From positions 433-47,081 of the forward strand of contig PFVO01000024.1 of the NCBI GenBank assembly GCA_002790655.1: a DNA stretch of 46,649 nucleotides. Reading direction: 5' to 3'. The stretch's first letter is position 1, and every line of letters starts with the position of its first letter. The stretch is from Candidatus Moranbacteria bacterium CG_4_9_14_3_um_filter_44_28 (GTDB lineage Bacteria > Patescibacteriota > Minisyncoccia > Moranbacterales > UBA11712). Shown here piece after piece: positions 40,946-46,649 of this stretch. The translations under genes were made by a program, and so were the position numbers. Below the pieces are notes generated by a model, which ran no database searches, was not told the DNA's origin, and saw only the letters and a list, made by a program, of their open reading frames with translations.

Positions 40946-41956
40946 TCAAAACAATTTATCCTGATTTTCTTTATTATATTCAATTCCCAAGTGCTTGTAA
41001 GCAGACTCCGTGGCCACTCTGCCTCTCGGGGTGCGGGCGAGAAAGCCGATTTGGATAAGATACGGTTCGTAGACGCCCTCGATTGTCTCAATTTCTTCCA
41101 TGGTGGCGGTAGCGATGGTCTGAATGCCGACCGGCCCGCCGCTGAATTTTTCTATTATCGTTTTAAGTATGAATCTGTCAGTAGGCTCGAGCCCCAGTTC
41201 ATCAATTTCGAGGTTGGCCAGAGTTTGACGAGAAAGTTCTTCGGTGATTGTGTCGCAATTTTCGACTTGGGTGAAATCGCGAGCTCTTTTCAAAAGCCGG
41301 TTGGCAACGCGCGGGGTGCGGCGGCTGGAACGGGAAATTGTTTTTGCCCCGGCGCTCTCAATAGGAATGGAGAGAATTTTCGATGAACGGTGAAGTATTT
41401 TTTCGATATCCTCGTTTTCATAAAAATCGAGGCGGTGTATAACTCCGAAGCGGTTGCGAAGGGGGGAGGAAATAGCGCCCAGGCGGGTGGTCGCGCCGAT
41501 CAGGGTAAAGCGGGGAAGATCGAGCTCGAGAGTTTTGGCGGAAGGACCCTTGCCGATTATTATATCCAGTTTGAACTCCTCCATGGCCGGGTACAAAACT
41601 TCTTCAATCAATTTGTTGAGGCGGTGAATTTCGTCAATGAAAAGAATATCACCGTCATTTAAATTGGTGAGAATCGAGCCAAGATCGCCCACTTTTTCAA
41701 TGGCTGGACCGGAGGTGGCGCGGATATTGGCGCCCATTTCCCTGGCGATAATGTGGGCGAGAGTCGTTTTCCCGAGTCCCGCCGGGCCGTAAAGAAGAAC
41801 ATGCTCAATGGGTTCCCCCCGTTTTTGGGCGGCTTTGATGAGGATATTGAGGTTTTTTTTAACTTTGTTCTGACCGACATACTCCGAAAAACTCTGCGGC
41901 CGCAGAGTGATGTCGAGTTTTGTGTCTTCGGTTTGCTCGTCAGAGGAAGTAATCAT
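40946..41956 (-). CDS. ruvB: Holliday junction helicase RuvB
   Basis: 336 residues. Walker [11 protein letters not shown], Walker [10 protein letters not shown], sensor [10 protein letters not shown], and the C-terminal winged helix with [16 protein letters not shown]. The family starts with a [12 protein letters not shown] block as here. It drives branch migration with RuvA. Confidence 0.98.
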
Positions 41957-42010: not shown

Positions 42011-42039
42011 TTGACAAAAAAATCGGCCTGTGCTAAACT
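42011..42039 (+). promoter_or_regulatory. Strong promoter of the candidate ncRNA
   Basis: TTGACA at 42011-42016 and TAAACT at 42034-42039 are separated by exactly 17 bases. A transcript would begin near 42046. No open reading frame of size follows on this strand. Confidence 0.75.
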
Positions 42040-42045
42040 GGTCTG

Positions 42046-42339
42046 TTCGGCAGATTTGTGATATGAAAGGCAATAATCAGAATTTTTCAAGTAGGCTAGC
42101 CTGTCCTGCGGAGCAGTCCAGAACGCAATACTTTCAAAACTCTGATTATTGCCTTAAATGAGAGAAAAATATAAAGTTCTCTAGCTTGCAGGCAATAAGG
42201 GGAGCTCGTAACTTTCCTACCGGGAACTTTCTTGCCCAGACATGGATTGTTCGGTTTCGGCTGAACTTTTCCTCGGCACTGTTCCTACCCCGCGATTCCC
42301 TAGTTGCGGGATTTTGCCTGCAGATTAGAGAATTTTTTT
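42046..42339 (+). ncRNA. Structured non-coding RNA of unknown class (candidate)
   Basis: About 290 bases with no supportable protein. Near the 5' end a small TCTG-TTCGG-CAGA hairpin forms. Domain 1: AAGGCAATAATCAGA (42067-42081) pairs perfectly over 15 bp with 42141-42155, enclosing a region with a CTGC-GGA-GCAG hairpin. Domain 2: TTCTCTA/TGCAGGCAA (42177-42195) pairs with 42314-42332 (16 of 19 bp), enclosing a GTTCGG-TTTCGG-CTGAAC hairpin and a CCGC-rich hairpin. A T7 run (42333-42339) follows, making the closing stem a terminator. No RNase P, tmRNA, SRP or 6S signature was found. Evidence is structural only; no homologue was compared. Confidence 0.65.
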
Positions 42340-42362: not shown

Positions 42363-42389
42363 GTAGAGACGCGATTCATCGCGTCTTTT
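42363..42389. repeat. REP palindrome at the 3' side of the RAYT gene
   Basis: AGACGCGAT-TC-ATCGCGTCT, preceded by GTAG; same GTAGAGACGC core as the other copies. Confidence 0.75.
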
Positions 42390-42390
42390 G

Positions 42391-42969
42391 TCAATAAAAA
42401 ATATTTTCCACTTTATTTTTGTCTTCGTCCCAAAACTTTGGGTTGCGCTCGATATATTCCCGAATTTTTCCGAGGCTATTTTCATCACGAATGATGCGGT
42501 CGTAAAATCGAGGTTGCCATTGAAAATTAGGAAATATTTCGCTAATTCTTTTTGTAGACGCGCCTTTGAAGCCGCGGATTATGGCAGATAAATTATTTGA
42601 TTGCGAACCGAACTTATTCTTATAATTTTTATCCGTAGAGACGCCTTGAAGGCGTCTCGATTGTGGCGCAGACTGAGACACATGCGATGCGTCTCTACTA
42701 TTTTCGATCACAATTATTCCATGCAAGTGGTTGGGCATTACAATAAATTGATCAACTTTTACGTTGTCCCTGATTTTATCTGTATTTAGCCACTCACTTT
42801 CAACGATTTTACCAATTTCGTTCAATACCATTTTTCCATCCTCAACCTCCCCGAAAAACTTTTGCATATCCTTCGTGCAAATCGTAACGAAATAATATCC
42901 GTTTTGCGAATAATCCCAATTTTTGTGTCGCACGGATTGGATTTTGTATTTGTTTTGATAGAGTGGCAT
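42391..42969 (-). CDS. REP-associated tyrosine transposase (RAYT)
   Basis: 192 residues of the Y1/IS200-type HUH family. The HUH motif reads MPNHLHGIIV (the two His residues near 80), and the catalytic Tyr is in QPRFYDRIIRDE, followed by IREYIERNPKFW. RAYT enzymes nick single strands at REP palindromes. The middle of the protein (SRDASHVSQSAPQSRRLQGVS) is encoded by two REP-like palindromes (42638-42695) without breaking the frame. The gene is intact, so recently active or maintained. Confidence 0.85.
   Translation of the reverse strand: MPLYQNKYKIQSVRHKNWDYSQNGYYFVTICTKDMQKFFGEVEDGKMVLNEIGKIVESEWLNTDKIRDNVKVDQFIVMPNHLHGIIVIENSRDASHVSQSAPQSRRLQGVSTDKNYKNKFGSQSNNLSAIIRGFKGASTKRISEIFPNFQWQPRFYDRIIRDENSLGKIREYIERNPKFWDEDKNKVENIFY
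42638..42695. repeat. Two REP palindromes inside the RAYT coding sequence
   Basis: GAGACGCCTT-G-AAGGCGTCTC (42638-42658, perfect) and GAGACACAT-GCG-ATGCGTCTC (42675-42695, one mismatch). Both belong to the GTAGAGACGC family seen on either side of the gene, and both are read in frame. Confidence 0.75.
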
Positions 42970-42985
42970 ATGTTTCGCGCTATCC

Positions 42986-43006
42986 GAGACGCATTCGATG
43001 CGTCTC
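42986..43006. repeat. REP palindrome at the 5' side of the RAYT gene
   Basis: GAGACGCAT-TCG-ATGCGTCTC, a perfect 9-bp stem, followed by TACGG. Confidence 0.75.
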
Positions 43007-43028
43007 TACGGCCATTATATCAAAAAGT

Positions 43029-43638: not shown

Positions 43639-46600
43639 CTATTCTTCCGTTACTCTTTCCACTTCTTCCATTGTCGTAACACCTTCCAAAACTTTCAAAA
43701 TTCCGTCTTGGGCCATAGTGAGCATTCCTTGCTCGATGGCGAGACTCTCAACTTGCGAGGCAGTGGGGCTTTCGTTGATCAATTTTTCCATCTCTTTTGT
43801 CATTTCCAAAATCTCGCTTACCGTGGTTCGTTCTTTGTATCCGATATTATTGCAAATCGGACAGCCGGCGGCTTCGAAAACATATTCAACTTTTTTTGGA
43901 ATCTCGATGCCGGATCTTTCGGAAATTGTTTTGAGAACTTTTTCAATATGATTTTTCACTTCCGAATTTACTTTCGTTTTCTTTTTGCATTCGGGACAAA
44001 GAATTCGGATCAGTCTTTGGGCCATAAAAGCGTTGACTGACGAAGCGATGTCGGTCGGCGAGACGCCCATATTCACGAGGCGCTGGACCGAACCAGCGGC
44101 GTTGTTCGTATGAAGTGTTGACAAGACTAAATGACCGGTGAGCGAGGCTTGCACCGCAATTCGGGCCGTTTCGTCGTCCCGGATTTCCCCGATCATCAGG
44201 ATATCCGGATTTTGGCGAAGAAGGGCGCGCAGGGCTTTTGGGAAAGTATAATCTTTTTTGTCGTCGGTTTGGGTTTGGAGAATTCCTTTGAGGCGGTATT
44301 CAATAGGATCTTCAACGGTGATTATTTTCACACCGGGTTTGTTGAGAATGGATAATAAAGAATAAAGAGTTGTTGTTTTTCCGGATCCGGTCGGGCCGGT
44401 GTTCAAAATTATTCCGTTCGGCTTTTTGACTTGTTCAAGAAGTGCGTCGAGATTTTGTTTTCTGATTCCCAATTCTTCTAGTTTTAAGGATTGGGCGCCT
44501 TGGTTGAGGAGACGCATCACCACCGTTTCGCCATAGCCGCCCAAAATAATCGAAACGCGAATGTCAATTTCGCGGTCTTTGATTTCGTGCAAAACTCCTT
44601 CTTCCAGTTTGATTCCAAACCGGCTGTCTTTCACGCCCCCTTCGACGTCAGTTGCCTTAAAACCGCTCAAAATTTTCACATTTCCCAAAAGATGAGGATA
44701 TTCATTCATGGGAATATGAACAACATCCTGGAGAATTCCGTCAATTCGATACCGAATTTTCACGGTGTTCTCTTCTGGCTCAATATGAATGTCTCCGGCG
44801 GAAAGTGACAGAGCCATAGCCATAATCAAATCGAGAATTTTCTCGGGCGGAGAATCGCTGATGACCTTCTGAAATACGGCGAATTTTTTTTTCGCTTCGG
44901 CTATTTTTTCTTCTGTGTCTTTATTGATTGTAATTGACCGGAGCAGAAGCTGGGTAATAATTTTCTCGTAAAGTTCTTCAAGAAATTTCCCTTCCCCGGT
45001 TACTCTTTGCACTTCTTCAATCGAAGTGATTCCCTCGAGAGATTTCAAAATCCCGTCCTGGAGCATAGTTACCATGCCGGCTTCAAGAGCCAGAGCAAGA
45101 ATTTCCGATTCGGGGGACATCCCGGTTACTTTTTGGGCAATTTCTTCGTTGATGGTGAAAATTTCAAAGATTCCAATCCGTCCTTTGTAACCAAGACCAT
45201 TGCATTTTGGACAGCCTTTAGCGCGGTAGAAAAAATCTATTTCTTTAGGTATAGCGAGTTTTGCTTTTGGAGAAATAACGGCCAGAATTTTTTTGACACT
45301 TTCAATTGTTTCCCGGGCCGGGGCGTATTTTTCCTTGCAGTGGGAACAAAGCCGCCGGACGAGGCGCTGGGCGATGATGGCGTTGACTGACGCTGGAATG
45401 AGCGAGGGCTTGATTCCCATGTCTATGAGCCGCGGTGTGGTTTCCACGGCGCTGTTGGTATGAAGGGTTGAGAGCACGAGATGTCCGGTAAGTGAGGCGT
45501 GAACGGCGATCGAGGCTGTTTCGTCATCACGGATTTCGCCGACTAGAATAATATCCGGATCTTGGCGGACAATGGAGCGGAGAGCGTTGGCGAAGGTATA
45601 TCCGCGGGATTTCGAAACTTGGGTCTGGGAAATCCCCTTGATTTTGTATTCAATCGGATCCTCAACCGTGATTATTTTCACTTCCGGCGTGTTGAGCTGG
45701 CTGACGATGGCATAAAGCGTCGTTGTTTTTCCTGAACCGGTGGGACCAGTGTTCAGAATCATTCCATTGGGATTTCCCATTTCTTCTTGCAATTGATCGT
45801 AGGCCAGTCCCCGAAGGCCTAAATCGTCGAACTTGAGGGCGATTGTTTGCTGATTGAGAAGTCGCATGACGATATTTTCTCCGAAGTTTCCGGGGAGGAT
45901 TGAAACACGAATGTCAATATCGTTTCCTTCAATTTGAATGGAGAAATGTCCGTCTTGAGCAATGTCGCGGATATTGATTTTCATTCCGGAAAGGACTTTC
46001 ACGCGCGATAAGATGTAGTGATAGGTTTGGATGGGAAGAACGGTTATGTTTTGCAATATCCCGTCAAGGCGGTAGCGGAGACGGATTCCGTCCTGCTGGG
46101 GTTCGAAATGGATATCGCTCGCATCCATCTTAATGGCACCGGCCATAACAATATTAATCACTTCTGTCGTTGGAATCTCGGTTATTCTTTTTCGAAGATC
46201 AATGACGTCTTTGAGTTTTTTTTCGAATTCATCGAGGTCGGCCCCGGTTAGAGTGAGGCGCAGTTCTTCAAGACTTTCAATAAGAGCGATGTGTTTGTAT
46301 TTTTCAATTGTTTTTTTGAGACCGGTTTGAGAGCAGAAAAAAAATTTCAGTTTGTATCCCTCTTCTTTTTCAAGTTTTTTGAGATATTCGGCGAGGTCCG
46401 GATTGGCAATATCTGCGAGCGCGAGGGCTACATTTTTCCCGGATCTCTGAATGCAGACCAGCTCATATTTTTCAGCGTCGGATTTTGAGATGGTGCGCAA
46501 AGTCTCCGGATCAACGGGAAAAATATTGAGGTCAATATAGGGTAATTTCAAAACGGCGGCTATGGCGGCGGCCTGCTGTTCCTCGGATTCGTGCTTCATT

Positions 46601-46649
46601 TTCGCCAAAATCCGCCGGACATCTTCCTCATGAGCTCCGTGAATTTCGT
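43639..46649 (-). CDS. Tandem double PilB/GspE (T2SSE) ATPase, 5' end beyond the window
   Basis: At least 1003 residues; the frame stays open to the window edge (an in-frame TTG at 46608 is not needed as a start). An MshEN-like N-terminal domain is followed by two complete PilB/GspE ATPase units. Each has P-loop GPTGSGKTTTLY (residues 288-299 and 738-749 counted from 46608), VEDPIEY, GEIRDDETA and a Cys4 zinc site (CSHC plus CPKC; CPEC plus CPIC). The two P-loops are exactly 450 residues apart. Assembly ATPases of type IV pili and type II secretion are normally single units forming hexamers; here one chain could form a trimer of dimers. Confidence 0.9.
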   Translation of the reverse strand, partial: EIHGAHEEDVRRILAKMKHESEEQQAAAIAAVLKLPYIDLNIFPVDPETLRTISKSDAEKYELVCIQRSGKNVALALADIANPDLAEYLKKLEKEEGYKLKFFFCSQTGLKKTIEKYKHIALIESLEELRLTLTGADLDEFEKKLKDVIDLRKRITEIPTTEVINIVMAGAIKMDASDIHFEPQQDGIRLRYRLDGILQNITVLPIQTYHYILSRVKVLSGMKINIRDIAQDGHFSIQIEGNDIDIRVSILPGNFGENIVMRLLNQQTIALKFDDLGLRGLAYDQLQEEMGNPNGMILNTGPTGSGKTTTLYAIVSQLNTPEVKIITVEDPIEYKIKGISQTQVSKSRGYTFANALRSIVRQDPDIILVGEIRDDETASIAVHASLTGHLVLSTLHTNSAVETTPRLIDMGIKPSLIPASVNAIIAQRLVRRLCSHCKEKYAPARETIESVKKILAVISPKAKLAIPKEIDFFYRAKGCPKCNGLGYKGRIGIFEIFTINEEIAQKVTGMSPESEILALALEAGMVTMLQDGILKSLEGITSIEEVQRVTGEGKFLEELYEKIITQLLLRSITINKDTEEKIAEAKKKFAVFQKVISDSPPEKILDLIMAMALSLSAGDIHIEPEENTVKIRYRIDGILQDVVHIPMNEYPHLLGNVKILSGFKATDVEGGVKDSRFGIKLEEGVLHEIKDREIDIRVSIILGGYGETVVMRLLNQGAQSLKLEELGIRKQNLDALLEQVKKPNGIILNTGPTGSGKTTTLYSLLSILNKPGVKIITVEDPIEYRLKGILQTQTDDKKDYTFPKALRALLRQNPDILMIGEIRDDETARIAVQASLTGHLVLSTLHTNNAAGSVQRLVNMGVSPTDIASSVNAFMAQRLIRILCPECKKKTKVNSEVKNHIEKVLKTISERSGIEIPKKVEYVFEAAGCPICNNIGYKERTTVSEILEMTKEMEKLINESPTASQVESLAIEQGMLTMAQDGILKVLEGVTTMEEVERVTEE

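Follow-up and report, generated by a model that had tools for sequence, protein, structure and literature searches.

The window analysed here is a stretch of 46,649 nucleotides from a reduced genome assembly (794 kb). Its segment 42011-42339 raises the question of whether an RNA gene lies there and, if so, which RNA it encodes. The initial annotation described an unidentified but structured RNA that has a promoter and a terminator of its own. This description is borne out by homologues in more than 100 genomes, covariation, a conserved promoter and the lack of an Rfam match, and the evidence that an unannotated structured RNA gene exists is very strong. Matches with named records put the closest relatives in Candidatus Moranbacteria (Moraniibacteriota), class Paceibacteria (Parcubacteria).

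The transcription unit and its conserved core

The features of the locus and its neighbours are as follows.

40946-41956, minus strand: ruvB, divergent neighbour conserved class-wide (Pfam RuvB_N/RuvB_C; tblastn and positions in relatives)
42011-42039, plus strand: sigma70-type promoter TTGACA-17-TAAACT with an upstream (extended) TG, conserved in relatives; -35 element at 42011-42016, -10 element at 42034-42039
42046-42176, plus strand: 5' leader, variable among relatives; start inferred from the -10 position, without TSS mapping
42067-42155, plus strand: copy of an interspersed hairpin repeat of ~89 nt, inserted in the leader (other genomic copies, covarying outer stems)
42177-42332, plus strand: conserved RNA core, four-way junction P1-P2-P3-P4 (covariance model match, fold, covariation)
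42178-42195, plus strand: 5' strand of P1, pairing with 42314-42331; junction-proximal CUGYAGRC conserved
42198-42218, plus strand: P2 hairpin (fold and covariation), present in 85/97 homologues
42222-42286, plus strand: P3 arm with a conserved internal loop AGnnnnGG / CCUCGG (fold and covariation)
42289-42310, plus strand: P4 hairpin (fold and covariation), present in 96/97 homologues
42314-42331, plus strand: 3' strand of P1 (fold and covariation)
42333-42339, plus strand: T7 run after P1, presumed intrinsic terminator (from sequence)
43639-46608, minus strand: PilB/GspE-type ATPase (T2SSE), convergent neighbour in most relatives (Pfam, relatives' loci)

The exact 17-base promoter spacing and the terminal T7 run are present as initially annotated. 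Comparison with the homologues establishes the promoter. An exact TTGACA occurs at the best site in 88 of the 102 homologues with enough upstream sequence, and the spacer is 17 nt long in 86 of the 100 homologue promoter sites scoring 9 or more. Promoter scores of at least 10 of 12 were reached by 86/102 upstream regions, compared with 12/102 shuffled and 3/98 downstream regions. The distance between the -10 element and P1 ranges from roughly 8 to 170 nt in relatives. High expression is inferred only, without RNA-seq data. The outer helix P1 and the T7 run form the 3' end of the RNA at the window locus; in 87/138 relatives a T-rich run follows P1 within 45 nt on the 3' side, compared with 61/139 on the 5' side. 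The minimum free energy of the region is -106.7 kcal/mol (z = -5.6), and none of 200 shuffles was as stable. The segment had also been described as lacking an ORF. Mechanical ORFs do overlap it; a conserved ORF is disfavoured because of the compensatory substitutions and length differences among relatives (coding potential was not separately tested).

A covariance model of the RNA (R1) matches the window at 42174-42334 with 144 bits. The core is 85-94% identical within the same family, and many members of the order still show 71-81% identity. A MAFFT alignment of 19 sequences, made without structural information, yielded the four-way junction; compensatory changes occur in 32 of its 53 pairs. 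Later alignments, unlike this first one (A1), were fitted to the structure of the model and are hence biased towards it. With 79 sequences from across the class, 93.7% of the cells are paired, compared with 72.1% after shuffling and 41-48% when the sequences were slid. One row of this alignment, a weak second match in L052, is spurious and was excluded from later models. The compensatory base changes that the initial annotation had proposed to look for in the stems were found, with changes on both sides in 47 of the 53 pairs of the 79-sequence alignment, including 18 of the 19 pairs of P1. In an APC-corrected G-test on 97 sequences, structure pairs fill 28 of the top 29 ranks, and the only other pair adjoins the end of P1; 45 of the 53 structure pairs lie within the top 75 column pairs. 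These results demonstrate the structure. GU cells exceed AC cells by 653 to 48, which shows that the plus strand is the RNA. The sequence also suggested a pseudoknot in which the loop of P2 would pair with the internal loop of P3 (UAUCU/AGAUA); this was rejected for want of covariation support in the G-test.

Conservation differs among the helices. It is highest in the junction-proximal part of P1 and in the internal loop of P3, which is asymmetric, and the sequences of P2 and P4 are variable across homologues. A UNCG-type tetraloop caps P3 at 42256-42259, and such a tip is usual in the homologues. Both long-range stems of the initial annotation are present, and their conservation was examined in related genomes. 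Stem 2 (arms 42173-42195/42314-42336, 83%) is kept there. Stem 1 is not; it is a repeat copy and lies outside the RNA family.

Distribution and position beside ruvB

Homologues of the RNA were found in its own family, order and class. A sequence-pattern search across genomes matched 64 contigs. With strict filters applied, model R1 found one copy of the RNA per genome in 153 of the 383 class genomes, and among the R1 matches listed, each matching genome has one match only. Because few candidates per genome were scored in the model scan, RuvB was located in a sample of 133 class genomes, and was found in 126 of them. The upstream flank of ruvB was read in 71 genomes that the scan had left unmatched, and the RNA was present in 61, always divergent from ruvB. 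The sense strand outscores the antisense strand in every case at these loci. In the other 10 of the 71 flanks fetched, the RNA was not found; thus loss, relocation or divergence does occur. Altogether, the RNA is present in 114 of the 124 genomes that have RuvB and could be tested (53 by genome scans and 61 by ruvB flanks), and in 4 of the 7 genomes without a RuvB match. The RNA is therefore documented in at least 118 of the 133 Paceibacteria genomes sampled.

The initial annotation had placed the RNA at the 3' flank of ruvB. This has to be corrected: ruvB is on the minus strand and starts at 41956, and therefore the RNA is on its 5' side, in divergent orientation. The usual gene downstream of the RNA, pilB, is convergent, and so the RNA is neither the leader of a downstream gene nor a cis-regulatory element. 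Two contigs titled Micavibrio and Elulimicrobium (L142 and L168) also carry the RNA motif. They are probably misbinned, since Paceibacteria-like pilB (both) and ruvB (L168) accompany it.

Outside the class, model R2 gave eight weaker matches (E values from 6e-10 to 8e-5), mostly without P2 and P4. In four of the eight genomes (L189, L192, L197, and L200), ruvB adjoins or is near the match. Homology beyond the class is likely for the matches with ruvB; the remaining matches are left open. One out-of-class locus (L199) possibly has two tandem copies of a reduced RNA, at 1501-1610 and 1286-1395 on the minus strand.

Comparison with known RNAs and possible function

The covariance model search against Rfam found no known family. 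At the gathering threshold, Rfam 15 gave no matches for the window and 12 homologous loci, and relaxed thresholds gave chance-level matches only. No description of the RNA was found in the open-licence PMC literature. The novelty of the RNA is judged against Rfam 15 and this body of literature.

RNase P RNA (RF00010) and tmRNA (RF00023), universal structured RNAs of bacteria, resemble the new RNA in being single copy, but they have their own loci. Both were found elsewhere in 12/12 genomes, and in the genome of the window they are at G000:C11:19094-19650 (RNase P RNA) and G000:C36:14291-14691 (tmRNA). ARAGORN detected no tmRNA in the window. The locus was therefore rejected as RNase P RNA and as tmRNA, and the question of a highly diverged version of either, which the initial annotation had left as possible but unsupported, is resolved. 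The SRP RNA (RF00169) is also a small structured RNA, with a housekeeping role; the new RNA differs in lacking the domain IV motif. SRP RNA was not detected in any of 12 genomes (G000 and 11 relatives), and its core motif gave only sporadic matches among 54 relatives. The Ffh M domain (PF02978) was found in 0/12 genomes, with 14/14 controls positive. This agrees with an earlier report that neither ffh nor ffs was found in Parcubacteria (Nelson and Stegen 2015, PMC4508563). SRP RNA was likewise rejected as the identity of the locus, as there is no family match, no domain IV motif and no detected Ffh M domain.

A further comparison is with 6S RNA (RF00013). The 6S RNAs, including the Patescibacterial members, resemble the new RNA in being single copy with their own promoter, a long closing stem and an internal arm. 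The hairpin 3' of the junction (P4) corresponds in position to the 3'-CB hairpin of 6S RNA, and the order of closing stem, arm and 3' hairpin (P1-P3-P4) is common to both. However, the new RNA forms a four-way junction, whereas 6S RNA is a rod. An open central bubble with an unpaired 5' strand defines 6S RNA (PMC8876501), but the 5' bubble of the new RNA is closed: it has a median of 3 unpaired nt and is closed by P2 in 85/97 members, and 8 of the 12 members without P2 have no more than 4 unpaired nt. A covariance model of the Patescibacterial 6S RNAs (R3) gave nothing significant against the new RNAs, and model R2 of the new RNA gave nothing significant against the 6S loci. Because the cross-model searches fail and the 5' bubble is closed, the new RNA was not filed under 6S; with the family search also against it, membership was rejected. 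Searches with RF00013 were positive for 29 of 380 Patescibacteria genomes, all outside the class Paceibacteria, and for 0/12 relatives; 6S RNA is present in sister classes that gave no match to the new RNA. The 6S candidates from other Patescibacteria classes (L203-L217) are mostly below the Rfam threshold and have conserved CCGUGGU and CCCACCU...AGG segments.

The Ms1 RNA of mycobacteria turned up in searches for 6S homologues, yet proved distinct from 6S RNA (PMC4191392). It binds the core enzyme of RNA polymerase, and this binding is favoured by its single-stranded central bubble (PMC4191392). Ms1 and the new RNA are alike as lineage-restricted RNAs with a presumed global role, but the new RNA has no central bubble.

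Taken together, these analyses suggest that the locus probably encodes a new class-wide, free-standing and trans-acting structural RNA, single copy, which on our reading works as the core of a ribonucleoprotein; its partner and function are inferred. No binding data exist: action in trans is inferred, and protein binding is inferred from conservation alone. Its promoter, which points away from ruvB, is of the housekeeping type and close to consensus, and the RNA folds into a compact four-way junction (P1-P4). The junction-proximal P1 and the P3 internal loop would form the docking site for an unidentified protein or large complex, and the outer P1, P2, P4 and the tip of P3 would be free to vary provided that pairing is kept. 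We tentatively propose, as a possibility that falls somewhat short of an even chance, that this is an undescribed housekeeping ribonucleoprotein RNA, ancestral to the Paceibacteria and perhaps to a wider part of the Patescibacteria, with a core role ranking with those of 6S RNA and SRP, neither of which was detected in these cells.

The main rival is that the RNA replaces 6S in the Paceibacteria, binding RNA polymerase in a 6S- or Ms1-like manner and adjusting transcription. Canonical 6S RNA was not found in the class, Ms1 provides a precedent (PMC4191392), and the single copy, strong promoter, closing stem and position of P4 would all fit. We consider this replacement unlikely, though not negligible, since the promoter-mimicking open 5' bubble is missing and the covariance models of the two RNAs do not find each other. 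The absence of any 6S genome among the 23 of 380 with the new RNA is only weakly informative, because an overlap with the 29 6S genomes of about 1.8 was expected. Rather more doubtful is a trans-acting role as a ribozyme (catalytic RNA) or as an RNA that binds a small molecule; the compact junction and the conserved asymmetric internal loop resemble those of ribozymes and aptamers, but no Rfam ribozyme or riboswitch matches, and most relatives have no regulated same-strand gene downstream.

Two other explanations have far less to support them. A highly diverged standard housekeeping RNA (SRP RNA, RNase P RNA, or tmRNA) is very improbable. The undetected SRP RNA does leave a gap in the clade, but PF02978 is missing from the same genomes, the domain IV motif is lacking, and RNase P RNA and tmRNA are accounted for elsewhere. 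That a four-way junction adjoins the gene of a Holliday-junction helicase might also point to a conserved DNA structure, such as a cruciform or a protein-binding palindrome near ruvB, instead of an RNA. This can scarcely be maintained, since the excess of GU over AC cells indicates selection of one strand as RNA, the promoter lies on that strand, and the sense strand always outscores the antisense.

Few bacterial structured RNAs are both near-universal and single-copy. The Paceibacteria are among the largest groups of uncultured bacteria, and almost all of the genomes tested have the RNA next to ruvB, a gene of DNA repair. Its conservation resembles that of a core cellular component. Its class-wide occurrence in the Candidate Phyla Radiation, with a fixed position and a near-consensus promoter, points to an unknown basic process in reduced cells, and the RNA may provide a handle on how the Paceibacteria manage without SRP and, as far as tested, 6S RNA. 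It gives metatranscriptomics and pull-down experiments a clearly delimited target, for which the sequence, the structure and a covariance model are available.

The leader repeat and other features near the locus

Stem 1 of the leader is perfect over 15 bp and extends to 27 nt at 89% (arms 42067-42093/42129-42155). It is the repeat copy, which has 8 matches in its own genome, counting the element and its palindromic self-match, and is missing between the promoter and the RNA in sister genomes. The outer stem of the repeat varies in sequence with the pairing kept, and double changes were found in 18/33 predicted pairs among seven copies. Hardly any variation is seen among copies in the internal loop (GUAGGCUAACCUG/CAGAACGCRAUAC), which is also written as GTAGGCTAACCTG / CAGAACGCRATAC (window 42067-42155; L002-L006 and L008). 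Judged from ORF starts, copies are located upstream of rplJ, serS, and gatC, between rplJ and rplL and between trx and trxB, and beside mreB. The window copy has no Rfam match, and its core was not found in the viral contigs searched. The repeat may act between cistrons in RNA processing or regulation; alternatively, it may be a mobile hairpin.

In the genome of the window, an IS200-like Y1 transposase (Pfam Y1_Tnp; 42391-42969, minus strand) lies between the RNA and pilB. Palindromes (GTAGAGACGC...) at 42364-42385, 42633-42698, and 42985-43015 flank the transposase, as in REP-associated tyrosine transposases. The PilB/GspE-type protein (43639-46608, minus strand) has 989 amino acids and two T2SSE stretches, and is apparently a tandem fusion.
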